64,000 nucleotides of DNA from Pedobacter endophyticus (GTDB taxonomy: Bacteria > Bacteroidota > Bacteroidia > Sphingobacteriales > Sphingobacteriaceae): the NCBI RefSeq assembly GCF_015679185.1, contig NZ_CP064939.1, positions 1,984,001 to 2,048,000 on the forward strand, read 5' to 3'. A program made the position numbers and the translations under genes. The notes beneath the pieces are model-generated. The model searched no databases, was not told the origin of the DNA, and saw only the letters and a program-made list of their open reading frames with translations. Below, piece by piece: positions 19,253-31,130 of this stretch (the stretch's first letter is position 1; the number at the start of each line of letters is the position of its first letter).

Positions 19253-19327
19253 AGACTGAGACACTAGATATGAGATGTGAGAAGAGACCTAGTCTCAAAT
19301 CTCATATCTCACATCTCCAATCTAAAA
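19253..19327 (+). repeat. Heptad array forming a hairpin between atpD and atpC
   Basis: Units such as AGATATG, AGATGTG, CTCATAT and CTCACAT recur at 7-nt spacing. The left arm (19266-19288) pairs with the right arm (19292-19316) around a 3-nt loop, giving a long imperfect hairpin. No U-tract follows. It fills the atpD-atpC spacer. Confidence 0.8.
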
Positions 19328-19330
19328 GGA

Positions 19331-19576
19331 ATGAATTTAGAAATATTAACTCCAGATAAAAAAGTTTTCGAAGGTGAAGTAACAGCAGTTACGGTACCTG
19401 GTACTTTAGGCTCTTTCCAGATTTTAAAAGACCACGCCCCTATCATCTCAACTTTAGAAGATGGAGAAGTAATTATAAAAGCAAACAAAGACGACGAACA
19501 ACGCTTTTTTATTAAAGGAGGCACAGTTGAAGCCATCCATAATAAAATTGTTGTTTTGGCAGAAGGTATTGCTTAA
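19331..19576 (+). CDS. atpC: F1 ATP synthase epsilon subunit, short form
   Basis: Central-stalk subunit of F1, 81 residues from ATG 19331. Only the N-terminal beta-sandwich domain is present (LEILTPDKKVFEGEVTAVTVPGTLGSFQIL then HAPIISTLEDGEV). The inhibitory C-terminal helical hairpin found in E. coli epsilon (138 residues) is absent, as in many Bacteroidota. It is co-transcribed with atpD and followed by a strong terminator. Confidence 0.95.
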   Translation: MNLEILTPDKKVFEGEVTAVTVPGTLGSFQILKDHAPIISTLEDGEVIIKANKDDEQRFFIKGGTVEAIHNKIVVLAEGIA

Positions 19577-19598
19577 AATAGCTTAACACAAAAAAAAA

Positions 19599-19633
19599 GA
19601 GCCTTTTCGATTAGTTTCGGAAAGGCTTTTTTT
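19599..19633 (+). terminator. Terminator of atpD-atpC
   Basis: AGCCTTTTCGA, a short loop and TTCGGAAAGGCT form a hairpin followed by a run of seven T. An A-run precedes it, so it may work in both directions. Confidence 0.9.
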
Positions 19634-20141
19634 ATAATACATCACTTTGCGCTAACAATACCGGCTTTCTGTAGAAATTAGTCTAATCAATGTCTTATTT
19701 ATATCTTGTTCTTTTTGAAAATGAGCGGTACTGTCTCATTATGATATCGAAAACGAATTACATGCAAAGTAAAAAGAATTCGAAAATATAAAGCGATTAG
19801 TTACTTCATCATAACCAACTCAATGGCATTTTAGGTCTGTTTCAAGCACCCTGTCCGCGTACACCTTACGGCTATAAATTTTCAACTTTTCTCGACTAAA
19901 AACCAATTTTAAGAAGAAAACTATAAAATTTACAATGCAAGCATAACAAACAGACCGTATACCGTTTTGATATTTGGTCTAGACCGATCGAGATTAAATC
20001 ACTATTTCCGTCGTTATTCAGAATTTTATTCGGAATCTATGAGAAATATAAGAATTATATTCTAATTTCATTTTTTTCTGATTTCTCTTGCATATTAATG
20101 AACCAAAAACTAAATTGGTATTTATAAAGAGTCAAGAAATA
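19634..20141. other. Gene-free upstream region of the ilv leader
   Basis: About 500 bp of AT-rich sequence with no credible gene. It should contain the promoter of the ilv leader transcript. The only -7-like sequence noted is GATATTTG near 19969, which has one mismatch and no clear -33 element. Confidence 0.5.
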
Positions 20142-20279
20142 ATGATTAATCACAACAACATACTTTCAAACAATTTCATCGCAACTGCGACTGGAAATGT
20201 TGTGCTGTTGCCTGTCATTATTTTAAACTTACTGCTGCTAAACATTTTATTGGGCAGTAAGCGGGCGACTTTTAAATAG
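20142..20279 (+). CDS. Branched-chain leader peptide (ilvL-like)
   Basis: A 45-residue frame from ATG 20142 to TAG 20279. Residues 20-38 are almost entirely Val, Leu and Ile (NVVLLPVIILNLLLLNILLG), including three adjacent CTG/CTG/CTA codons. It ends 27 nt before a strong terminator and 79 nt before ilvE. The position, composition and overlap with alternative RNA stems are those of an attenuation leader peptide. The longer frame from TTG 20088 is less likely. No family name is assigned. Confidence 0.75.
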   Translation: MINHNNILSNNFIATATGNVVLLPVIILNLLLLNILLGSKRATFK

Positions 20280-20337
20280 ATTTAAAAAAAGATTAAATAT
20301 ACTTAAAGCGTCCTGACACAAACAGGACGCTTTTTTT
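20228..20337 (+). promoter_or_regulatory. Transcription attenuator of the ilv operon
   Basis: Three stems are visible. CTTACTGC (20228-20235) pairs perfectly with GCAGTAAG (20254-20261) across the Leu codons. GGGCGACTTTTAA (20263-20275) can pair with TTAAAGCGTCC (20303-20313) as an antiterminator. AGCGTCCTG (20307-20315) pairs with CAGGACGCT (20323-20331) as the terminator. The last two exclude each other. A ribosome reaching the stop codon at 20279 would cover 20263-20275 and allow termination; one stalled at Leu/Ile/Val codons would leave it free. The mechanism is inferred. Confidence 0.75.
20307..20337 (+). terminator. Leader terminator upstream of ilvE
   Basis: A perfect 9-bp stem AGCGTCCTG/CAGGACGCT with loop ACACAAA is followed by seven T. 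It lies 21 nt before the ilvE start, so read-through is needed for ilvE expression from the leader promoter. Confidence 0.9.
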
Positions 20338-20357
20338 AAATAACAAAACACGGTATT

Positions 20358-21248
20358 ATGAAGTACTATAATTCTAATACGATTATTTACCTCGATGGGC
20401 GCTTTGAAAAGGCAGTAGACAGTAGCACTGATCTTTACGGGCAATCGTTACATTACGGTTATGCTGCATTTGAGGGCATCAGAGCGTACAAAACCCATAA
20501 CGGAAACCGCATCTTTAAGGCGGCCGCTCACTTCGACCGTTTAGAGCGTTCGTGCCAGCTGGCCAATATTCCGTTTCCGTGGGACAAACAAGAACTGATC
20601 AGGCAAACCTACAAACTCCTTACGCTAAACAAACTAAAAGACGCCTATATCCGTCCGCTGGTTTTTTGCCACCCAAACATGAAGCTAAACGAGCCAAGCG
20701 GCGTTTCCATTTTGATTTGTGCGTGGGATTGGGATGCGTATTCGGGTAACAAGCTGTTGAAACTGACCATTTCAGAGTTCGAAAGGCCAAACCCAAAATC
20801 GACTCCTATGGAGGCTAAGTTGAGCGGAAACTACGTTAACTCCATTCTGGCTACGACTGCCGCCAATATTAAAGGCTACGATGAGGCTTTACTTTTAGAT
20901 ATGCATGGATTTGTTGCCGAAGCATCAGGCGCCAACATCTTCATCGAAAAAGACGGAAAGCTTTTTACACCATCTTTAGGAAACATTTTGCCAGGAATTA
21001 CCAGGGCTACCGTTAAAGAGCTTTGCAACGTTCTCGACATCGAATGTATTGAGAAGAAACTTACCGTTGAGGATTTGAGAAAAGCAGACAGTGCGTTTTT
21101 GTGCGGAACAGCCACAGAAATTGCAGGCATTGCCTCTATAGACGATATCGTTTTTCGTACCCTTTGGAGAGAATCACTCGGTTACACCATACAGCGGGCC
21201 TACAAAAATCTGGTGCTCGAAAAAGTAAATTATGAAGTGATAATATAG
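20358..21248 (+). CDS. ilvE: Branched-chain amino-acid aminotransferase
   Basis: Class IV PLP enzyme for the last step of Val, Leu and Ile synthesis. The protein has 296 residues. SLHYGYAAFEGIRAY is the family's N-terminal motif. Lys154 in EAKLSGNYVNS is the PLP lysine. DMHGFVAEASGANIFIEKDG and PGITRATVKELC are the conserved C-terminal blocks. First structural gene after the attenuator; ilvD follows after a repeat-filled 171-bp gap. Confidence 0.95.
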   Translation: MKYYNSNTIIYLDGRFEKAVDSSTDLYGQSLHYGYAAFEGIRAYKTHNGNRIFKAAAHFDRLERSCQLANIPFPWDKQELIRQTYKLLTLNKLKDAYIRPLVFCHPNMKLNEPSGVSILICAWDWDAYSGNKLLKLTISEFERPNPKSTPMEAKLSGNYVNSILATTAANIKGYDEALLLDMHGFVAEASGANIFIEKDGKLFTPSLGNILPGITRATVKELCNVLDIECIEKKLTVEDLRKADSAFLCGTATEIAGIASIDDIVFRTLWRESLGYTIQRAYKNLVLEKVNYEVII

Positions 21249-21249
21249 T

Positions 21250-21283
21250 CAGAAAGTCGGGAGTCAGAAAGTCCGAAGTTTGG
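21250..21283 (+). repeat. Heptad array after ilvE
   Basis: TCGGGAG, TCCGAAG and TTTGGAG with interspersed 8-nt TCAGAAAG units begin at the ilvE stop codon and run in its sense direction. Confidence 0.75.
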
Positions 21284-21300
21284 AGGCAAAAAAATCAAAA

Positions 21301-21399
21301 ATCGGTGGAATCACATTGATATCAGTGTAATCAAACTGAAGGAAAAAGCGCAAGATAAAATCGGTGAAATCACATAAAAATCCGTGAAATCACTTTAAA
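21301..21399 (+). repeat. 20-nt ATCNGTGNAATCA repeats before ilvD
   Basis: Four units start at 21301, 21321, 21360 and 21380, in two exact 20-nt-spaced pairs. The core is ATC-N-GTG-N-AATCA. Sister pairs lie before leuD (32222, 32240) and before the twin-ABC gene (33005, 33023) at 18-nt spacing. Confidence 0.8.
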
Positions 21400-21419
21400 C
21401 AGAATATATACCTTAAACA

Positions 21420-23102
21420 ATGAGCGAATTAAACAAGTACAGTAAAACATTTACACAAGATCCAACACAACCGGCAGCGCAGGCTATGCTTTACGGAATC
21501 GGTTTAACCGATGCAGATATGGCGAAAGCACAGGTCGGTATTGCAAGTATGGGCTACGACGGCAACACCTGCAACATGCACTTAAACGACCTTGCAAAAG
21601 AAGTTAAAGTTGGAGTCTGGAAAAATGATTTAGTGGGCTTGGTATTCAATACCATTGGCGTAAGTGATGGCATGAGCAACGGTACCGATGGCATGCGTTA
21701 CTCGTTGGTAAGCCGCGATGTAATTGCAGATAGTATCGAAACCATTTGCGGCGGGCAATATTACGACGGCATCATCTCCATACCCGGTTGCGATAAAAAT
21801 ATGCCGGGCGCTATTATGGCTATGGCACGCTTAGATCGCCCATCAATTATGGTGTATGGCGGTACAATTGCGCCGGGACATTATAAAGGAGAGGAACTCA
21901 ATATCGTTTCAGCTTTCGAGGCTTTAGGTCAAAAAATCTGCGGCAATTTATCAGAAGACGATTATCAAGGCATTATTAAACATACTTGTCCCGGTGCGGG
22001 CGCCTGTGGTGGCATGTACACCGCAAATACAATGGCTTCGGCAATAGAAGCTTTGGGCATGAGCTTACCCTATTCGTCATCGAACCCGGCAACGAGCGAG
22101 GAGAAAAAACAAGAGTGTTTAGATGCCGGAAAGTATATCAGAATCCTTTTAGAAAAAGACATTAAACCGTCTGATATCATGACAAGGAAGGCATTCGAAA
22201 ATGCAATTCGCTCAATCATTATATTAGGTGGAAGTACTAATGCGGTATTACACTTCATCGCAATTGGTAAGGCCGTTGGTGTAGAAATTACTCAAGACGA
22301 CTTTCAACGCATGAGCGACGAAACACCCGTTCTTGCAGATTTTAAACCAAGTGGAAAATATCTGATGCAAGATCTGCATCAATATGGCGGTACACCTGCT
22401 GTGATGAAATACCTCTTAAACGAGGGATTAATTCATGGCGATTGCTTAACTGTAACCGGTAAAACAGTTGCCGAAAACCTTGCTGATGTAAAATCGATAA
22501 TGGATTACGATCAAAAGATTGTTCAGAAACTGGATAATCCCATCAAAGCAACTGGCCATTTACAAATTCTTTATGGAAACCTGGCTGAGAAAGGTTCTGT
22601 AGCAAAAATCAGCGGTAAAGAAGGTGAAAAATTTGAAGGTCCGGCACGTGTATTCGACGGTGAAAAAGATTTAGTTGCAGGAATATCTAGCGGCAGAATT
22701 AAACCGGGCGATGTTGTCGTTATTAAAAATGAGGGCCCGGTTGGCGCTCCGGGTATGCCCGAAATGCTAAAACCAACTTCTTTAATTATTGGTGCCGGTT
22801 TAGGTAAATCAATCGCATTAATTACTGATGGCCGTTTCTCTGGCGGAACACATGGTTTTGTGGTTGGCCATATCACTCCCGAGGCCTATAAAGGTGGACT
22901 AATTGGCTTGGTAGAAGATAATGACCTGATTGAAATCGATGCTGTGAACAATACTATTAACTTGAAAGTTAGCGAAGAAGTTATTGCAGAGCGAAGGAAA
23001 AATTATGTTCAGCCAGCCTTAAAAGTAACAAAAGGTGTGCTTTATAAATATGCTAAAACAGTTTCAGACGCGGCCAGTGGTTGCGTAACTGACGAGTATT
23101 AA
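21420..23102 (+). CDS. ilvD: Dihydroxy-acid dehydratase
   Basis: Iron-sulfur dehydratase making the 2-oxo acids of the Val/Leu and Ile branches. The protein has 560 residues. Cluster ligands are recognisable: Cys51 (YDGNTCNMH), Cys124 (PGCDKNMPG) and Cys196 ([11 protein letters not shown]). The C-terminal domain includes [16 protein letters not shown] and [15 protein letters not shown]. It is full length. The window shows the usual ilvE-ilvD-ilvB-ilvN-ilvC order, broken here by the ORF6N gene. Confidence 0.97.
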
Positions 23103-23150
23103 ATTTTGGAAGTCATCCCGACAGAAAATTGATATTTAAATGAATACAAT

Positions 23151-23720
23151 ATGCAAATTATAAAAAGCATTGAAAGTAGAATTTATACAGTTCGGGGTGA
23201 AAGGGTAATGTTAGATTTCGATCTGGCGGCACTTTACGAAGTGGAAACAAGAGTATTAAATCAAGCGGTAAAACGAAATGAAAAACGTTTTCCTGATGAT
23301 TTCATGTTTCAGCTAACTTCAACTGAATGGGAAAGCATGCAGTCACAATTTGTGACCGCCTATGAGGAAATTAGTCCATCATCACAAATTGTGATGATGA
23401 ATATTCCGCAAAACAGAACCGGCAAATATTTACCCTACGCATTTACCGAGCAGGGGGTAGCCATGTTAAGTGGCGTTTTGAGGAGTGATAAGGCAATTAA
23501 AATGAACATTGCCATAATGAGGGCTTTTGTAGCAATTAGGAAGATTTTTCTTCAACCGAATGATGACAATGAAAGATTAAAAGAAATAAAAGAGCGAATT
23601 GAAGAGCATGATATCCAACTGAATCAATTATATGATGCTATGGATAATCTACTAGACGAGAGAATCGCCCAAAAGAAGTGGAACGATAGAAAACGAATCG
23701 GCTTTAAAATAAAAGAATAA
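23151..23720 (+). CDS. ORF6N-domain DNA-binding protein
   Basis: Protein of 189 residues with an N-terminal ORF6N domain (residues about 5-90: ESRIYTVRGERVMLDFDLAALY, then LNQAVKRNEKRFPDDFMFQLT). ORF6N is a phage- and mobile-element-associated domain related to KilA-N. AFTEQGVAMLSGVL and IMRAFVAIRK are also typical. The C-terminus (about 130-189) is a charged coiled coil. It is inserted between ilvD and ilvB in the same orientation, 21 bp before ilvB. The function is unknown; a phage-derived regulator is plausible. Confidence 0.85.
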   Translation: MQIIKSIESRIYTVRGERVMLDFDLAALYEVETRVLNQAVKRNEKRFPDDFMFQLTSTEWESMQSQFVTAYEEISPSSQIVMMNIPQNRTGKYLPYAFTEQGVAMLSGVLRSDKAIKMNIAIMRAFVAIRKIFLQPNDDNERLKEIKERIEEHDIQLNQLYDAMDNLLDERIAQKKWNDRKRIGFKIKE

Positions 23721-23741
23721 TAGAACCGCAAAAACATAATT

Positions 23742-25490
23742 ATGGAAACTGCACAAGATACATTACAACAAACGGAGGCGAAGGCAGAAACCTCTAAAAC
23801 CTTTAAGGGAACAGGCTCGCAGGTTCTTTTAAACGGACTAATTGAAGAGGGCGTAACCACCATCTTCGGTTATCCGGGTGGAGCAATCATGCCGATTTAT
23901 GATGCACTTTACGACTATGCCGACAAGCTGGAGCACATTTTAGTCCGCCATGAGCAGGGCGGCATCCATGCGGCCCAGGGTTTTGCCAGAGCAAGTGGCA
24001 AAGTTGGGGTTTGTTTCGCAACCAGCGGACCGGGTGCAACCAATTTGGTAACTGGTTTAGCCGATGCTCAAATCGATAGCACACCCTTAGTTTGTATCAC
24101 AGGGCAAGTTTTCGCTCACTTATTGGGAACTGATGCATTTCAGGAGACAGATGTAATTAACATTACTACGCCTGTTACCAAATGGAATTATCAGGTTACC
24201 GATGCCAAAGAAATCCCCGAGGTTTTAGCTAAGGCTTTCTACATTGCTAAAAGTGGCAGGCCAGGCCCGGTTTTAATCGACATTACAAAGAACGCACAAT
24301 TACAGGTTGAAGAATTTCCAGAGTATGTAAAGTGCAACCATATCCGCTCCTATCGCCCAAAACCAAAAGTTAGGGTAGAATTTATTGAGCAAGCTGCACA
24401 ACTAATTAATGCCGCACAAAAACCCTTCATACTCTTTGGGCAAGGCGTTATTTTAGGTCAGGCTGAAGCAGAATTTAAGGCGTTTATTGAAAAAAGTGGC
24501 ATTCCGGCAGCATGGACTATTATGGGCGATGGCGCAATTCCAACAGATCACCCATTAAATGTGGGGATGTTGGGGATGCACGGTAATTATGGGCCGAATG
24601 TTTTAACAAACGAAGCTGATGTAATCATTGCAATCGGAATGCGTTTCGATGACCGGGTAACGGGTAGATTAGATAAATATGCAAAGCAGGCAAAGATTGT
24701 TCATTTAGACATCGATCCGGCCGAGATTGACAAAAATGTTAAAGCCGACGTTGGCGTTTGGGGCGACTGCAAAGAAACTTTGCCGCTTTTAACCGATTTG
24801 GTAAACGAAAAAAAACACGATGATTGGTTAGCTAAATTTAAAGACTACAACCAACAGGAGATCGATCAGGTGATTACGCCCGAGCTTTATCCCGAAGGTG
24901 ATGAAATGACCATGGGCGAGGTATTGCGCAACATCAACGAAATTTGTGGCGGCGATGCCGTAATCGTAACCGACGTTGGTCAGCACCAAATGGTAGCCTG
25001 TCGTTACGCCAAGTTTAACAACACACGTAGTAACATCACCTCTGGCGGTTTGGGAACAATGGGCTTCGGCTTGCCAGCTGCAATAGGCGCTAAATATGGT
25101 GTGCCAAACAAAACGGTAATTGCAATTATTGGCGATGGTGGTTTCCAAATGACTCCGCAAGAGCTCGGTACAATTATGCAATTTGGCGCCGCTGTTAAAA
25201 TTTTGATCCTGAACAACCGCTTCTTAGGCATGGTGCGTCAATGGCAACAGCTATTTCACGATAAAAGGTACTCGTTTGTAAACATCACAAGTCCTGATTT
25301 CGTCGCCCTGGCAAAGTCTTATTACATAGAGGCTAGCAAGGTTGATGAACGTGCAAACTTGAGGAACGCTTTGGAAACAATGATTAATCACGAAGGATCG
25401 TACCTTTTAGAAGTAATGGTTGGTCGAGAAAACAACGTTTTCCCGATGGTTCCCCAAGGAATGAGTGTAAGCGAAATTAGGTTAAAATAA
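23742..25490 (+). CDS. ilvB: Acetolactate synthase large subunit
   Basis: ThDP- and FAD-dependent enzyme condensing pyruvate with pyruvate or 2-oxobutyrate. The protein has 582 residues. The ThDP-activating glutamate is in LVRHEQGGIHAAQGFARA. The Mg-ThDP motif is GDGGFQMTPQELGTIMQFG ending in NN. FGYPGGAIMPIYD begins the pyrimidine-binding domain after a short variable N-terminus of about 25 residues. ilvN follows, 122 bp downstream. Confidence 0.97.
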   Translation: METAQDTLQQTEAKAETSKTFKGTGSQVLLNGLIEEGVTTIFGYPGGAIMPIYDALYDYADKLEHILVRHEQGGIHAAQGFARASGKVGVCFATSGPGATNLVTGLADAQIDSTPLVCITGQVFAHLLGTDAFQETDVINITTPVTKWNYQVTDAKEIPEVLAKAFYIAKSGRPGPVLIDITKNAQLQVEEFPEYVKCNHIRSYRPKPKVRVEFIEQAAQLINAAQKPFILFGQGVILGQAEAEFKAFIEKSGIPAAWTIMGDGAIPTDHPLNVGMLGMHGNYGPNVLTNEADVIIAIGMRFDDRVTGRLDKYAKQAKIVHLDIDPAEIDKNVKADVGVWGDCKETLPLLTDLVNEKKHDDWLAKFKDYNQQEIDQVITPELYPEGDEMTMGEVLRNINEICGGDAVIVTDVGQHQMVACRYAKFNNTRSNITSGGLGTMGFGLPAAIGAKYGVPNKTVIAIIGDGGFQMTPQELGTIMQFGAAVKILILNNRFLGMVRQWQQLFHDKRYSFVNITSPDFVALAKSYYIEASKVDERANLRNALETMINHEGSYLLEVMVGRENNVFPMVPQGMSVSEIRLK

Positions 25491-25514
25491 GCTGAAAAAT
25501 CAAAGCTGGTGCAA

Positions 25515-25595
25515 TCGTCATCTCGACTGAAGCGCAGCGAAAATGGAGCGAACTTTGAAAAAAGATTTCTCCGCGAGGTCGAAATGACGATACGG
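25515..25595 (+). repeat. REP-like element between ilvB and ilvN
   Basis: The ends GTCATCTCGACTGAAGCG and CGAGGTCGAAATGACGA form an inverted pair typical of the GTCAT-type dispersed repeats. It would lie inside the ilvB-ilvN transcript. Confidence 0.65.
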
Positions 25596-25612
25596 TAAAA
25601 AAAGAAATTATC

Positions 25613-26251
25613 ATGAATACTGAAAATACATTAGAACATAAAAAAGACAAAGCCGATATAGACGGAAAGCAAGAATATACCATTACGGTTTATGCTGAAA
25701 ATCGCATCGGATTATTAAACAGGATTGCGATCATTTTCTCAAAAAGGAAAATCAATATCGAGAGCCTGAACACCTCTCCATCAGAAATTGATGGCATTCA
25801 CCGTTTCAATATCGTAATTACCGAAAGTTACGATGTGGTGCGTAAACTTGCCCGCCAGATTGAGAAACAGGTTGAAGTACTGAAAGTATACTTCAACACC
25901 AACGAGGAAATTATTTGGCAGGAGCTCGCCTTATATAAGGTGTCGACAGATGAAATTGCGGAGAAAGTGACTGTAGAGCGATTGCTGAGGCAATATGGCG
26001 CCAGTGCGGTGGTGATTCGTAAAGACTATACTGTTTTTGCAGTAACTGGTCACAGAGAAGAAACAGATGCATTGGTAAAAGCCCTCGAACCGTTTGAATT
26101 GATCGAATTTGTTCGCTCGGCAAGGATTGCCATTATCAAGGACAGTGCCGGTTTCCACGAGAAGCTGAAAGAGTTTGAGGCTTTTGAACCAGGTGAAGAA
26201 TTGATAGAGAACGAGTTTTTAGATAAGGGCGAAAAGATTTTCACAATGTAG
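25613..26251 (+). CDS. ilvN: Acetolactate synthase small subunit
   Basis: Regulatory subunit of acetohydroxyacid synthase, binding valine through an N-terminal ACT domain. The protein has 212 residues. After about 20 charged residues, YTITVYAENRIGLLNRIAII starts the ACT domain, ending near residue 100. A second, C-terminal ACT-like domain follows (YTVFAVTGHREETDAL). The length is slightly above the 160-190 usual for IlvN/IlvH because of both termini. Confidence 0.95.
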   Translation: MNTENTLEHKKDKADIDGKQEYTITVYAENRIGLLNRIAIIFSKRKINIESLNTSPSEIDGIHRFNIVITESYDVVRKLARQIEKQVEVLKVYFNTNEEIIWQELALYKVSTDEIAEKVTVERLLRQYGASAVVIRKDYTVFAVTGHREETDALVKALEPFELIEFVRSARIAIIKDSAGFHEKLKEFEAFEPGEELIENEFLDKGEKIFTM

Positions 26252-26256
26252 TGGAG

Positions 26257-26311
26257 CTTAAAGCTGAAAGAGCAAGCTGAAAGATTAAAGCTGAAGGATC
26301 AAAGAGCAAAA
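26257..26311 (+). repeat. NNNAAAG heptad array after ilvN
   Basis: CTTAAAG, CTGAAAG, ATTAAAG, CTGAAGG and ATCAAAG units with one 6-nt unit start 6 nt after the ilvN stop codon, in its sense direction. Confidence 0.85.
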
Positions 26312-26327
26312 CGAAAACCTAAACGAG

Positions 26328-26386
26328 TCGTCATTGCGAGGTACGAAGCAATCTCATTCATATAAACTTAGCCTCGCAATAACGAA
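26328..26386 (+). repeat. REP-like inverted repeat before the DinB gene
   Basis: CGTCATTGCGAGG and CCTCGCAATAACG form inverted arms with one mismatch; the left arm continues with TACGAAGCAATC. This is the same family as the perfect pair at 61168-61229. Confidence 0.8.
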
Positions 26387-26395
26387 CAAATAACA

Positions 26396-26860
26396 ATGAA
26401 CGAAATATTTAAATTTATAATAGACTCACGCAAGGCTTTTATCAGGTTGATAGACGAATTAACTGTTGAGCAGTTGAACCAAATTCCAGCGGGCTTTAAC
26501 AACAACATTATCTGGAATTTCGGCCATATTGTAGTCACCAGTCAAACCCTTTGCTATGTGCGCACCGGGATTTTGCAAGATGCGAACGCTGTGAAGTTTA
26601 ACGAATTTTATAAGAGAGATACTCGCCCAACTTACACAGTAACAGAAGAAGAAGTGGCAGAATTAAAGGCAATGGCGTTGGAAAGCATCGAAAAGATTAA
26701 GCTGGATTATAACAGCGGCTTCTTCCCTGTCATTACCCCTTTTTCAACCTCAACCTTTGGAGTTGAAATAAAAACCATTGAAGAAGTACTAACTACCACT
26801 GTTGGCCATGATAACCTACACTTTGGCTACGCGTTGGCGCAGAAAAAGGCATTAACGTAG
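26396..26860 (+). CDS. DinB-like putative metalloenzyme
   Basis: DinB/YfiT-fold four-helix protein of 154 residues. The likely metal-binding histidines are in WNFGHIVV (about residue 43) and GHDNLHFG (about 141 and 145), the family's three-His arrangement. The DinB superfamily includes thiol-dependent transferases such as BstA and the mycothiol/bacillithiol-linked enzymes. No substrate can be read. It is cargo between ilvN and ilvC, flanked by repeats on both sides. Confidence 0.8.
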   Translation: MNEIFKFIIDSRKAFIRLIDELTVEQLNQIPAGFNNNIIWNFGHIVVTSQTLCYVRTGILQDANAVKFNEFYKRDTRPTYTVTEEEVAELKAMALESIEKIKLDYNSGFFPVITPFSTSTFGVEIKTIEEVLTTTVGHDNLHFGYALAQKKALT

Positions 26861-26967
26861 AGGGTTAGAAACGATAAGGAGCTGAAAAGGATAAAGATAA
26901 AGCAAAACGCTCAATAAATAATCGGTGAATAGACCGGAAGACTAAACAATTTTTAAGCATCATGACA

Positions 26968-27014
26968 ACAGTCTTGATACTTGACACTAAACACTTGATA
27001 CTAAATAATTAAAT
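26968..27014 (+). repeat. Heptad array before ilvC
   Basis: CTTGATA, CTTGACA, CTAAACA, CTTGATA and CTAAATA follow each other with an exact 7-nt phase, ending about 12 nt before the ilvC ATG. Confidence 0.8.
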
Positions 27015-27025
27015 AACAAAAAACG

Positions 27026-28507
27026 ATGTCAAATTATTTTAACACATTACCTCTTAGAGAAAAATTGAACCAACTTGGTGTTTGCGATTTCATGGACAGC
27101 AACGAATTTTTGGATGGCGTTAGCGCTTTGAAAGGCAAAAAACTAGTAATTGTAGGTTGCGGTGCCCAAGGCTTAAACCAGGGGTTAAATTTAAGAGATA
27201 GTGGTTTAGATGTTAGCTATACCTTGCGTAAAGAAGCCATTGAAGGCAAAAGAGACTCATGGAAAAATGCAACCGAAAACAATTTCAATGTAGGCACCTA
27301 CGAAGAATTGATTCCGACAGCTGATGTGGTAATTAACCTTACGCCCGATAAGCAACACACCGCTGTGGTAAATGCAATTATGCCTTTAATGAAAGAAGGC
27401 GCTACTTTATTGTACTCTCACGGCTTCAACATTGTTGAGGAAGGCATGCAGATCCGTAAAGATTTAACCGTTATTATGGTTGCTCCTAAATGCCCTGGTA
27501 GCGAGGTTAGGGCAGAATATGTACGTGGTTTTGGGGTGCCAACTTTAATTGCCGTACACCCGGAAAACGACCCTCAAGGTAAGGGATTGGCCCAAGCCAA
27601 AGCCTATTGCGTAGGTACAGGTGGCCACAGAGCCGGTGTATTAAAATCATCGTTCGTTGCCGAGGTGAAATCTGATTTGATGGGCGAGCAAACCATTTTA
27701 TGTGGCTTGTTGCAAACAGGTTCTATCCTATCTTTCGATAAAATGGTAGAAAAAGGAATAGACGCGGGTTATGCTTCTAAACTGGTTCAATACGGTGTTG
27801 AGGTAATTACCGAAGCCCTAAAACAAGGCGGAATTACCGCAATGATGGATCGCTTAAGTAATGTTGCCAAAATTAAGGCGTTCGAGATTTCCGAAGAATT
27901 GAAAGACATCATGCGTCCGTTGTTTCAAAAACACCAAGACGACATTATGAGCGGTGAGTTTAGCCGTACAATGATGGAAGACTGGGCCAATGGCGATAAA
28001 AACCTCTTGAAATGGAGAGCTGAAACAGGCGAAACTGCTTTCGAGAAAACCCCTGCTGGCGACGTTAAAATTGGTGAGCAAGAATATTTCGACAACTATT
28101 TATTGATGGTTGCTTTTGTACGTGCTGGTGTTGAACTGGCTTTCGAAACTATGGTTCAGGCAGGTATCAAACCAGAATCTGCTTACTACGAATCGTTACA
28201 CGAAACACCGCTTATTGCCAACACCATTGCCCGTAAAAAATTATTCGAAATGAACCGCGTAATTTCTGACACTGCCGAATATGGTTGCTATTTATTCGAT
28301 CAGGCATGCAAACCTCTGTTAGCTGATTTTATGACAAGAGTTGATACGGACCTGGTTGGTAAAAATTTTAACGAAGGTAAAGATGGCGCCGTTGACAACA
28401 GAAAATTAATCGACGTTAACGAGGCAATCCGCTCGCACGAAGTAGAACAGATTGGTGCTACTTTGCGTAAAGCGATGACTGCAATGAAAGCCATTAAAAC
28501 TGCATAA
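27026..28507 (+). CDS. ilvC: Ketol-acid reductoisomerase, class II
   Basis: NADPH- and Mg-dependent enzyme of Val/Leu and Ile synthesis. At 493 residues it is the long class II (E. coli-like) form with a duplicated C-terminal helical domain. The Rossmann motif is [25 protein letters not shown] carries the NADPH-phosphate-binding loop. [10 protein letters not shown] and the second EQEYFDN region hold metal-binding acids. It is followed by two GC-rich palindromes, then leuC. Confidence 0.97.
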
Positions 28508-28508
28508 T

Positions 28509-28534
28509 CCCCCAAACCCCCAAAGGGGGCTTTT
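28509..28534 (+). repeat. GC-rich palindrome after ilvC
   Basis: CCCCCAAAGGGGG with a preceding CCCCCAAA and a trailing CTTTT. It is 2 nt past the ilvC stop codon and may double as a weak terminator. Confidence 0.7.
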
Positions 28535-28561
28535 AAAATACAAAAAATAACACACTCACTA

Positions 28562-28596
28562 AGCCCTCTCCTTAAGGGGAGGGTTCGGTGGGGCTA
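28562..28596 (+). repeat. GC-rich palindrome before leuC
   Basis: CCCTCTCCTTAAGGGGAGGG followed by TTCGGTGGGGC. This is the same class as the copies at 28640 and in leuD. Confidence 0.7.
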
Positions 28597-28639
28597 TTGA
28601 GAGAGAATAAAATGCTAACACAAACACCTAAAAGCCATG

Positions 28640-28672
28640 CTACCCCTTTCCCTTTGGGGAAGGTTGGGATGG
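28640..28672 (+). repeat. GC-rich palindrome touching the leuC start
   Basis: CCCCTTTCCCTTTGGGGAAGG followed by TTGGGATGGGG. Its right end contains the ATG at 28669 that I take as the leuC start codon. Confidence 0.7.
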
Positions 28673-30075
28673 GGAAAACATTAGTAGAAAAAATTTGGGA
28701 CGCTCACGTTGTAAAAAGTGAAGAGGGTTTCCCCGACATTTTATACATTGATACACACTTAATACACGAGGTAACCTCGCCGCAGGCTTTTGATGGCTTG
28801 CGTAAGAGAGGATTACCCGTTTTTCGGCCAAAGCAAACGGTGGCCACTGCCGATCATAACGTACCCACTTTAAACCAATTATTGCCAATTAAAGAAGAGC
28901 TTTCGCGCTACCAGGTAGATATGCTTACCAAGAATTGCGCAGAATTTGGAATTGAGCTTTATGGCTTAGGTCATCCATTTCAGGGAATTGTTCACGTAAT
29001 CGGCCCCGAATTGGGCATTACCCTACCCGGTAAAACGATGGTTTGCGGCGATAGTCACACTTCAACGCATGGTGCTTTTGGAGCCATTGCCTTTGGTATC
29101 GGCACATCGCAGGTAGAGCAGGTTTTCGCTACCCAATGTTTATTACAGTCGAAACCGAAAACAATGAAGATTGAAGTAAACGGCCAGCTCGGAAAAGGCG
29201 TTGGTGCGAAAGACATTATTCTTTACATTATATCTCAGATTTCCGCAGCCGGCGGTACCGGATATTTTATCGAGTACGCAGGTTCCGCAATCGAGTCGTT
29301 GAGTATGGAAGCCCGTATGACCATTTGCAACATGAGTATCGAGATGGGTGCAAGAGGTGGCTTAATAGCGCCAGATCAAATAACCTTCGATTACATTAAA
29401 GGCAGACAATTTGCACCTGCCGGCGAAGAATGGGATCAATCTTTAGCCTATTGGAAAACATTGTATACCGATGCAGATGCAACATTCGATAGCGTTTTAA
29501 CTTTCGATGCGGCAGATATTGCACCGATGATTACCTACGGAACCAACCCCGGAATGGGTATGGGCATTAAAGAGCATATTCCTGCAACCAATGCCCAACC
29601 CGAAAAGGAAAAGCTTTCTTATCAAAAAGCACTCGATTATATGGGCTTCGACGACGACGCCTCGTTAATTGGGAAACCGGTTGATTATGTTTTTATCGGA
29701 AGCTGCACGAACTCTCGTATCGAGGATTTGCGTGAAGTAGCCGATTTTGTAAAGGATAAACGCAAGGCAGACAACGTAACGGTTTGGATTGTTCCGGGTT
29801 CAAAGCAGGTAGAAGCCCAGGCAAAGGCCGAAGGTTTAGACAAAGTTTTTGAACAGGCCGGCTTCCAGCTACGCGAACCGGGTTGCAGTGCTTGTTTGGG
29901 AATGAACGAGGATAAGATCCCAGCAGGGAAATATTGTGTTTCTACATCGAACAGAAACTTTGAAGGTAGACAAGGGCAAAATGCCCGTACACTATTGGCC
30001 AGCCCGCTAACGGCTGCCGCAGCTGCTGTAACAGGTAAGATTACCGATGTGAGGGAAATGCTGGAGAAAGCTTAA
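28669..30075 (+). CDS. leuC: 3-isopropylmalate dehydratase large subunit
   Basis: Aconitase-family iron-sulfur enzyme of leucine synthesis, partner of LeuD. From ATG 28669 it has 468 residues, matching the family's usual 465-470 and its usual MGKTL start. Longer in-frame starts at 28612 (ATG) and 28588 (GTG) would add residues encoded by the repeat element. [38 protein letters not shown] (cluster Cys) and GCSACLGMN (two cluster Cys) are all present. The stop codon lies inside the heptad array at 30064-30147. Confidence 0.95.
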
Positions 30076-30147
30076 AGCTTAAAGCAGAAAGACTAAAGCT
30101 TAAAGACCAAAGCTGAAAGCCGAAAGACCAAAGCTTAAAGCCGATAG
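30064..30147 (+). repeat. Twelve-unit NNNAAAG heptad array at the leuC end
   Basis: Twelve consecutive exact 7-nt units without any indel. Eleven end in AAAG and the last in ATAG, with variable triplets GAG, CTT, CAG, ACT, ACC, CTG and CCG. The first units are the final codons of leuC and include its TAA at 30073-30075. Confidence 0.95.
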
Positions 30148-30260
30148 CTAATGCTGACCGCTTATCATCCGATAGCTATCAGATGCGACGCACGGTTTAT
30201 CCTCACTTTTTTCGGGAAAGCAATCCATTTTGCGATGAAAACACAATAATAAATAAACCT

Positions 30261-30839
30261 ATGAACGAATTAAACATCAGGCTACCCGAACGCTATCAAG
30301 AAATCAAGGTAGAATCAACTTCGCTAGGGTTTGATATGCTTTCTGATGTACAGACCGGAAGTTTATTGAGAACGTTGGTTTCATCAAAACCTAATGGATT
30401 TTTCTTGGAACTTGGTACAGGAACCGGGCTTTCTCTTTCTTGGTTGGTCGATGGAATGGACAAGTCGTCGAAGCTGATTTCAATTGATAATTCAGCTGAT
30501 TTCCAATCGGTTGCTGCAAGACACTTTGGAAAAGATGATCGTGTAAAACTGATTTGTGAAGATGCAAATCAATGGATAAAAGAAAATCAAGATCAATATT
30601 TTGATTTAATTTTTGCCGATGCCTGGCCCGGTAAATATGAAAGTTTACAGGAAACGTTGAATTTGATGAAAACCGGTGGCTTTTACATTATCGATGATAT
30701 GCTTCCTCAACCAAACTGGCCGATGGCGCATGAACAAAATGTAGAAAAATTGATCGCTCATTTAGAGACATTAGATTTTATTAATCTAACCAAAATGAAT
30801 TGGTCAACTGGTTTGGTAATTATTACAAAAATTAAATAG
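30261..30839 (+). CDS. SAM-dependent O-methyltransferase-like protein
   Basis: Class I methyltransferase of 192 residues from ATG 30261; the frame opens at 30183 but the extra part is not family-like. FFLELGTGTGLSLSWLVDGMD is the SAM-binding motif I, KLISIDNSADF gives the acidic residue after strand 2, and DLIFADAWPGKYE is the motif II region. The arrangement resembles the O-methyltransferase group (CCoAOMT-like). The substrate is unknown. The next gene begins immediately at its stop codon, so the two are likely coupled. Confidence 0.8.
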   Translation: MNELNIRLPERYQEIKVESTSLGFDMLSDVQTGSLLRTLVSSKPNGFFLELGTGTGLSLSWLVDGMDKSSKLISIDNSADFQSVAARHFGKDDRVKLICEDANQWIKENQDQYFDLIFADAWPGKYESLQETLNLMKTGGFYIIDDMLPQPNWPMAHEQNVEKLIAHLETLDFINLTKMNWSTGLVIITKIK

Positions 30840-31130
30840 GTGATTTTAGAAGTTGCGATATTAGATGTAAAAGCTGGTTTATCAGCTGATTTTGAAAAAG
30901 CCTTTAGCGAGGCGCAAAAAATCATTTCTGCGATGGAAGGTTACATCTCGCATCAACTAAAAAAGTGTCTCGAAAAAAGCGATAGATACATTCTGCTGGT
31001 AAACTGGGAAACACTGGAGGCGCATACCGAAGGCTTCAGGGGCTCAGTAGAATATGAGGAGTGGAAAAGCTTGCTGCATCATTTTTATGAGCCTTTTCCA
31101 ACGGTTGAACATTATGTGGAAGTAGAGTGA
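30840..31130 (+). CDS. ABM-domain (antibiotic biosynthesis monooxygenase) protein
   Basis: Ferredoxin-like ABM protein of 96 residues starting at GTG 30840, directly after the TAG of the methyltransferase gene. MILEVAILDVKAGLSADFEKAF, YILLVNWETLEAHTEGFRGS and HHFYEPFPTVEHY match the family. Members degrade heme, oxidise quinol-like compounds or have unknown roles. The tight linkage to the methyltransferase suggests a shared small-molecule substrate, but this is inference. Confidence 0.8.
   Translation: MILEVAILDVKAGLSADFEKAFSEAQKIISAMEGYISHQLKKCLEKSDRYILLVNWETLEAHTEGFRGSVEYEEWKSLLHHFYEPFPTVEHYVEVE

Follow-up and report, generated by a model that had tools for sequence, protein, structure and literature searches.

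What is the role of the 45-codon reading frame, rich in Val, Leu and Ile codons, that stands before ilvE, the first gene of a branched-chain amino acid cluster of Pedobacter endophyticus? We analysed this question in the window, i.e., the whole stretch of 64,000 nucleotides in which the cluster occurs in the 5.43 Mb genome (G000), and in the corresponding regions of related bacteria. From the comparison of these sequences, we propose that the ilvE-led cluster is very probably controlled by ribosome-mediated transcription attenuation, in which the supply of Leu, Ile and Val would govern read-through. The features on which this proposal is built are collected in Table 1.

Table 1. Features of the ilvE upstream region and of the downstream cluster (positions in the window).
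Feature	Position	Strand	Remarks
Probable promoter −33 element, TTG of CTCTTG	20088..20090	+	near-constant block in the near clade
Probable promoter −7 element, TAAATTGG	20111..20118	+	block also in L053, L071, L081 and L115
Leader peptide ORF, 45 codons	20142..20279	+	ATG...TAG; product MINHNNILSNNFIATATGNVVLLPVIILNLLLLNILLGSKRATFK
Sensor run, 15 Val/Leu/Ile in 18 codons	20199..20252	+	
Conserved rare Val codon GTC	20214..20216	+	this column is GTC in 46/47 near-clade leaders
Stem over Leu codons	20228..20261 (20228-20236 with 20253-20261)	+	folds in the window; not conserved
Antiterminator strand (segment 2)	20263..20272	+	encoded by the final leader codons
Terminator 5' arm (segment 3)	20305..20315	+	common to terminator and antiterminator
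Terminator 3' arm (segment 4)	20323..20333	+	
Intrinsic terminator T-run	20331..20337	+	
ilvE, branched-chain aminotransferase	20358..21248	+	first gene behind the attenuator; TIGR01122, just over cut-off
ilvD	21420..23102	+	TIGR00110
ilvB, acetolactate synthase large subunit	23742..25490	+	TIGR00118
ilvN, acetolactate synthase small subunit	25613..26251	+	TIGR00119
ilvC	27026..28507	+	NF003557, TIGR00465
leuC	28588..30075	+	TIGR00170

Organization of the ilvE upstream region

Directly before the leader, a TTG followed after 20 nt by TAAATTGG (20088-20118) forms a block, almost invariant in eight near-clade sequences (the window being one of them), which we take to resemble the Bacteroidetes promoter consensus. 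The preliminary description of this DNA had counted about 15 Val, Leu or Ile in 19 codons of the leader, and the sensor run bears this out. In 47 near-clade leaders, the columns of the run are I, L or V in 94-100% of the sequences, except for column 26 (79%), column 40 (39%) and the conserved P and N columns. This composition is kept through the interchange of the three residues, for instance in columns 30 and 31 of the near-clade alignment, with medians of 4 I, 9 L and 3 V residues per leader. The region therefore has one hallmark of an attenuator, namely a short leader ORF in which the codons for the amino acids that the controlled genes produce form a run.

A second hallmark, an intrinsic terminator that separates the leader from the first biosynthetic gene, is present where the preliminary description had placed it, directly before ilvE. 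It consists of an 11-bp hairpin (20305-20333; −16.4 kcal/mol), located 25 nt past the leader stop, and of a T-run ending 20 nt upstream of the ilvE start. The alternative pairing had also been positioned essentially correctly: within 20263-20272 and 20305-20313, positions 20263-20267 pair with 20309-20313, and 20269-20272 with 20305-20308. When the transcript is folded up to the loop, i.e., with the 3' arm not yet transcribed, the free energy is −10.6 kcal/mol; since this is weaker than the terminator, the antiterminator would have to win by timing.

The segment 20120-20345 folds far better than its shuffled versions (z −6.9; 0/200). By contrast, the antiterminator is not significant in the window alone, as 230 of 2000 composition-shuffled leader ends (about 11%) pair equally well, and it therefore needs comparative support. 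Taken by itself, the latter figure would suit the view that the frame is a chance ORF lying next to the terminator of the transcription unit before it, a view on which the comparative data presented below bear directly.

The perfect stem over the Leu codons, also mentioned in the preliminary description, does fold in the window sequence but is not conserved. Synonymous recodings of the run fold almost as well (mean z −0.14 for 45 distinct near-clade sequences and −0.40 for all 134 distinct sequences), and we rejected this stem as a functional element. The same comparison with synonymous recodings revealed no conserved protector or pause hairpin (1:2, trpL-like).

Could the frame instead encode a small membrane protein acting in trans, the hairpin being a mere terminator between two units? 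The peptide is hydrophobic in the manner of a single membrane helix, and its N/L/K blocks are conserved in the near clade. Nevertheless, it matches no Pfam family at cut-off (PF06143 was the only hit; E 0.04, 14 bits versus 28.4 required), its length is variable (16 to about 50 residues), peptides of different clades share little identity, and, as described below, selection bears on the GTC codon and not on Val alone, while the last codons covary with the terminator. We thus regard the membrane-protein reading as very unlikely.

As concerns the downstream genes, we noticed that two others are lodged in the cluster, an ORF6N-domain gene (23151-23720) in the ilvD-ilvB gap and a DinB_2 gene (26396-26860) in the ilvN-ilvC gap.

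Leader and terminator in relatives

Using the ilvE sequence (E < 1e-120), orthologs were found in 114 of the 119 Pedobacter genomes searched, two more were added later, and all 116 loci were fetched. A fixed caller, which requires an ATG frame 15-74 codons long, in which some 16-residue stretch has at least eight I/L/V, and a terminator near the stop, detected leader and terminator in 115 of these 116 loci, versus none of 232 dinucleotide shuffles of the same regions. With a stricter cut-off of ten I/L/V in 16 residues, 106 of the 116 loci were retained. The 30 closest loci (window included) all possess both elements. A similarity search gave 79 ilvE loci; at 92-97% identity these belong to Pedobacter species and to L249, a metagenome-assembled genome (MAG) labelled only Sphingobacteriaceae, and at 67-87% identity they are mostly from Pedobacter. 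The preliminary description had held that the lack of a conserved Leu/Ile/Val run or antiterminator in orthologous regions would speak against attenuation; these counts, together with the covariation of the antiterminator (see below), contradict such a lack.

The sole Pedobacter locus without a call, L115 (genome G186), has kept the promoter block and lacks the leader, the promoter being followed by a different hairpin with a T-run; it is perhaps a natural loss of the attenuator. In many near relatives (L018, L022, L025-L029, L031 and others), the distance from the terminator to ilvE is about 120-150 nt and not about 24, some 100 extra nucleotides lying in between.

The preliminary description had suggested looking for the same arrangement before ilvE or ilvD in other Sphingobacteriaceae, and it was found in other genera before both genes. 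In Sphingobacteriaceae outside Pedobacter, leader and terminator precede ilvE in 10 of 35 loci (genus codes g18, 8/8; g13, 1/1; g21, 1/2) and are absent from the other 25; once false calls had been removed, none remained in g16 (0/8), g4 (0/9), g5 (0/4), nor in g2, g15 and g19 (0/1 each). A sample of the phylum yielded ilvD in 107 of 148 genomes, from which 70 loci were fetched, including three from Pedobacter, where ilvD is internal to the cluster. The same design occurs before ilvD in 16 of the 67 loci from other genera (16 of the 70 fetched, four doubtful calls having already been removed), with positives in the family codes f21 (same phylum, other class; 12/15), f8 (2/4) and f4 (2/12).

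These figures result from a curation in which 159 automatic calls were reduced to 141 loci. The calls upstream of ilvE in g16, g4, g2 and g19 (L120-L128, L135, L177) were inspected by eye, judged to represent the end of the gene before or unrelated frames next to a terminator lying upstream, and discarded; the ilvD calls L157, L217, L156 and L161 were dropped as doubtful; and L113, L114 and L116 were left out as second copies from genomes already counted.

Covariation of the leader end with the terminator

The last leader codons in most loci repeat the terminator 3' arm, so that they can pair with the 5' arm. The 141 loci present 43 distinct triples of segments 2, 3 and 4, many of the stretches being only 4-6 nt long, and in 111 loci segments 2 and 4 have the same sequence. 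The commonest triples are GGCGCT/AGCGCC/GGCGCT (33 loci) and GGACGC/GCGTCC/GGACGC (17 loci); others include GAAGGCGT/ACGCCTTC/GAAGGCGT, GAGACGT/GCGTCTC/GAGACGC and TGAGGCACT/AGTGCCTCA/TGAGGCACT.

The following lines of evidence indicate that the leader end changes in concert with the terminator, as the preliminary description had asked to verify. First, the pairing of each leader end with its own terminator arm has a mean of −11.84 kcal/mol, versus −9.38 with swapped partners, and it is better than the mean swap of the locus in 129 of 141 cases. Second, at least six contiguous pairs occur in 89/141 own combinations, compared with 628/1410 swapped ones and 106/1410 with shuffled leader ends; swapped ends often pair because many relatives share terminator cores. 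Third, a contiguous match score of at least 16 is reached by 79/141 own, 268/1410 swapped and 19/1410 shuffled combinations. Fourth, since related loci are not independent, we used 18 representatives of different terminator cores, for which none of 20000 permutations reached the observed mean; these representatives are not wholly independent either, some cores being shifted readings of each other. On the weaker side, the best contiguous match has a score below 12 in 16 of the 141 loci, and in the core group ACAGCC (two loci) the own leader end pairs worse than swapped ends.

An antiterminator that excludes the terminator, the third hallmark of an attenuator, is thus kept by covariation in the comparative data. 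Together with the 115 positive loci, for which the shuffles gave none, and with the conservation of the promoter-like block directly before the leader, this covariation shows that the arrangement of leader, terminator and alternative pairing is real and not due to chance. The chance-ORF view is contradicted by these data, and we consider it vanishingly improbable.

Proposed mechanism and position of the ribosome

In the attenuation that we propose, transcription would start directly upstream of the leader. With ample charged Leu, Ile and Val tRNAs, the ribosome would pass the I/L/V codons, reach the stop and cover the last leader codons. Segment 2 being covered, the terminator 5' arm would pair with its own 3' arm and the RNA polymerase would stop before ilvE. 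If any of the three tRNAs is short, the ribosome would stall in the run, about 11 nt or more before the antiterminator strand, which would remain free to pair with the terminator 5' arm as soon as this arm is made, thereby allowing read-through. As attenuation requires the ribosome and the polymerase to advance in step, such leaders would be ready-made reporters of the coupling between the two machines in Bacteroidota, which are thought to start translation mostly without Shine-Dalgarno sequences.

The spacing of the elements fits this scheme, i.e., a run-stalled ribosome freeing segment 2 and a stop-positioned one masking it. In the 141 loci, the last I/L/V codon and the antiterminator core are separated by a median of 11 nt (interquartile range 10-13), the core assignment behind these gap figures being wrong in some loci (e.g., L012, L017 and L027). 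The core starts 17 to 10 nt before the end of the stop codon in the middle half of the loci and ends at a median of 9 nt before it. The stop codon is thus placed as the preliminary description had said, so that a terminating ribosome with the assumed footprint would hide the strand.

To model the ribosome we used equilibrium folds with an assumed footprint, whose edge was set 11 nt beyond the A-site codon. In snapshot folds taken before the 3' arm is made, the predicted probability of the core exceeds 0.5 in 124 of 141 loci with a ribosome stalled in the run, and the core forms in 107 of 141 loci with no ribosome; its value of zero with a ribosome at the stop codon is a consequence of the mask and not evidence.

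According to the same model, the antiterminator of the window would form with a probability of 0.97 in the absence of a ribosome. That these mutually exclusive structures can form without translation is what one would expect of a translation-independent switch, i.e., a metabolite, a T-box or a protein-bound RNA choosing between terminator and antiterminator. Such a switch is nonetheless highly improbable here: the interval 19300-31000 has no Rfam family at gathering score, in addition to the leader and the terminator, no structured domain was seen to be conserved, and the run folds hardly better than its recodings. In the search for T-box and other cis-regulators in this interval, only rteR appeared at E ≤1 (E 0.26, 29.9 bits versus 72), and it was rejected. 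With regard to attenuation by the ribosome, the lack of a protector hairpin leaves room for membership in this class, since E. coli ilvL also has a high antiterminator value without ribosome (0.79 in the fold model). We rejected the notion that these systems are generally ON by default without translation, the modelled value being 0.97 for the ilv leader and 0.06 for the sister leader before thrA.

Preference for the Val codon GTC

Again because related loci are not independent, codon choice was studied in 42 divergent leaders (last residues less than 60% alike), with the first 280 codons of the gene downstream as the control. GTC makes up 51 of 101 Val codons in these leaders, versus 46 of 571 in the downstream genes, and it occurs at least once in 36 of the 42 leaders. 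In the window itself, GTC accounts for 3% of the 931 Val codons of long ORFs (37 mechanically called ORFs, each ≥200 aa). Most occurrences of the GTC trinucleotide are in the leader frame (48/50, 80/98, 6/9 and 30/32 in four groups), and its distance from the stop varies among leaders. Other codons are biased as well: ATT represents 0.83 of the Ile codons in the leaders versus 0.49 in the downstream genes, and CTA plus CTC represent 0.30 of the Leu codons versus 0.15. As judged from these frequencies, the leaders are under codon-level selection.

These biases bear on the possibility that the device is a real attenuator that senses mainly one amino acid, Val through GTC (or Leu through CTA/CTC), the other codons setting the pace. 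The GTC and Leu-codon figures point in this direction, but all three residues are present in the leaders, as the near-clade medians given above illustrate, and the Ile codons are biased too; we therefore see the one-amino-acid sensor as possible, though rather unlikely.

Fifty tRNA-model matches were obtained in the genome (from the best 150 of 454 candidates), 49 of which were read as tRNA genes by ARAGORN; the fiftieth, L399, had no ARAGORN call. In this set, the Val tRNA genes are two UAC copies only. A G34 tRNA was found in each of the Ala, Pro, Ser, Thr, Leu and Gly boxes. Among the best 150 of the 454 candidates, Val is the only one of the four-codon boxes (Ala, Gly, Leu, Pro, Ser, Thr and Val) in which no G34 tRNA gene was found. 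A search of the genome for the GAC-loop pattern, which recovers 23 of 38 known tRNA sequences, hit four places, none of them a tRNA. As no Watson-Crick Val tRNA was found here, GTC appears to be read only by wobble in this genome.

The codon bias of leaders has been explained by Elf and Ehrenberg by the selective charging of isoacceptors, with a warning against invoking rarity alone (PMC1183508). A genome with a single Val isoacceptor would fall outside the direct reach of this argument, and the GTC preference is for this reason worth testing. We tentatively suggest, with well under even confidence, that the branched-chain leaders of Bacteroidota carry a deliberately slow sensor codon, GTC, which in this genome is apparently read only by wobble with one Val tRNA species (UAC, two copies), and which selection would have kept in otherwise dissimilar families. 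The device may then sense Val tRNA charging and wobble modification besides supply, the ilv version being ON by default if the leader is untranslated. The GTC bias would thus offer a sharp and cheap test of the decoding step sensed by an attenuator.

Comparison with known attenuators

The preliminary description had presented the compact two-state form as less familiar. It is not unusual: when the same fold model is applied to E. coli K-12 MG1655, segment 2 lies inside the leader in thrL (−11 to −3 from the stop end), ilvL (−34 to −19) and leuL (−34 to −29), and lies past the stop in trpL, pheL and hisL, the assignment being unclear in ivbL (−31 to +8). For this reason, the compact form belongs to the thr/ilv type, and we rejected the idea of a new architecture.

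The Pedobacter system and E. coli ilvL/ilvXGMEDA (as well as ivbL and leuL) have in common an I/L/V leader, an intrinsic terminator and the control of branched-chain genes; with ilvL and leuL, it also shares an antiterminator strand assigned by the fold model to the inside of the leader ORF. The Pedobacter system differs from E. coli ilvL/ilvXGMEDA by its phylum, its gene order (ilvE or ilvD first), a segment 2 nearer to the stop (about −17 to −8 in the window) and the preference for GTC as Val codon; by appearance, the two leader sequences look unrelated. The closest geometry is that of E. coli thrL/thrABC, where the strand at −11 to −3 is followed 17 nt on by the terminator, but thrL has Thr/Ile codons, not I/L/V. 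In E. coli trpL and pheL, leader stalling likewise favours the antiterminator, whose strand is located after the stop codon; in the fold model without ribosome, their terminator 5' arm is mostly free of the antiterminator (0.05 for trpL and 0.16 for pheL), unlike that of the window.

Outside Proteobacteria, branched-chain leader peptides with terminators are described for Staphylococcus ilvD (PMC5794164) and Corynebacterium ilvB-II (a uORF; PMC10272879). Compared by description, the former differs in that its antiterminator is proposed to capture the U-tail of the terminator, and the latter in that its leader usually has 15-17 codons. Leader-peptide systems were presented in 2010 as known only from Proteobacteria and Actinobacteria, to which Firmicutes were added (PMC2965389). 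As for Bacteroidota, leader-peptide-like sORFs are reported in Bacteroides thetaiotaomicron (PMC7366714; 2020), and an article whose main text does not contain the term "ilv" states strong clues for attenuation by leader peptides before amino-acid operons of Flavobacterium psychrophilum (PMC9723704; 2021). In the openly licensed literature, our searches gave no account of an ilv attenuator from Sphingobacteriaceae. The Pedobacter ilv attenuator would be a known mechanism in another phylum, and the interest resides in the GTC signature and its breadth.

Related leaders in the same genome

A pattern for the ilvE terminator type matches two places of the genome, each on both strands, namely the ilvE site and a site before thrA (L306). 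The latter has the same terminator core and is preceded by a Thr/Ile leader, MTFNTSIITTIIITTGINQRG (L306, 1381-1520), standing before an aspartokinase-type gene; this leader looks like E. coli thrL. A thrA gene was present in 58 Pedobacter genomes; of the 30 loci fetched from these, 28 have a Thr/Ile leader, a terminator and a possible antiterminator.

Similarly, trpE is preceded by a Trp leader, MINNIHAWLWQGNSKQNCAGCV (L342, minus strand, about 2210-2070), with a terminator and an antiterminator duplex of −21.7 kcal/mol; a ribosome positioned at the stop would, according to the fold model, mask the strand only partly (0.41). The candidate cis-regulatory RNA of Bacteroidetes named Bacteroid-trp (RF01692; PMC2864571) has no match in the whole genome, the interval 19300-31000 included, despite this trpE leader with its terminator and antiterminator. 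With these sites, the isolated indications of leader peptides in a few Bacteroidota would grow into a regulatory layer that is conserved for the ilv and thr genes, and probably for the trp genes as well.

Finally, hisG is associated with a His-rich frame, MNLTLNHYLHLHHRR (L341, 1225-1290), whose stop codon is embedded in the perfect hairpin ATCGCC-GTTA-GGCGAT. As this hairpin has no T-run, it is not an intrinsic terminator, which suggests that hisG would be controlled by another mechanism.
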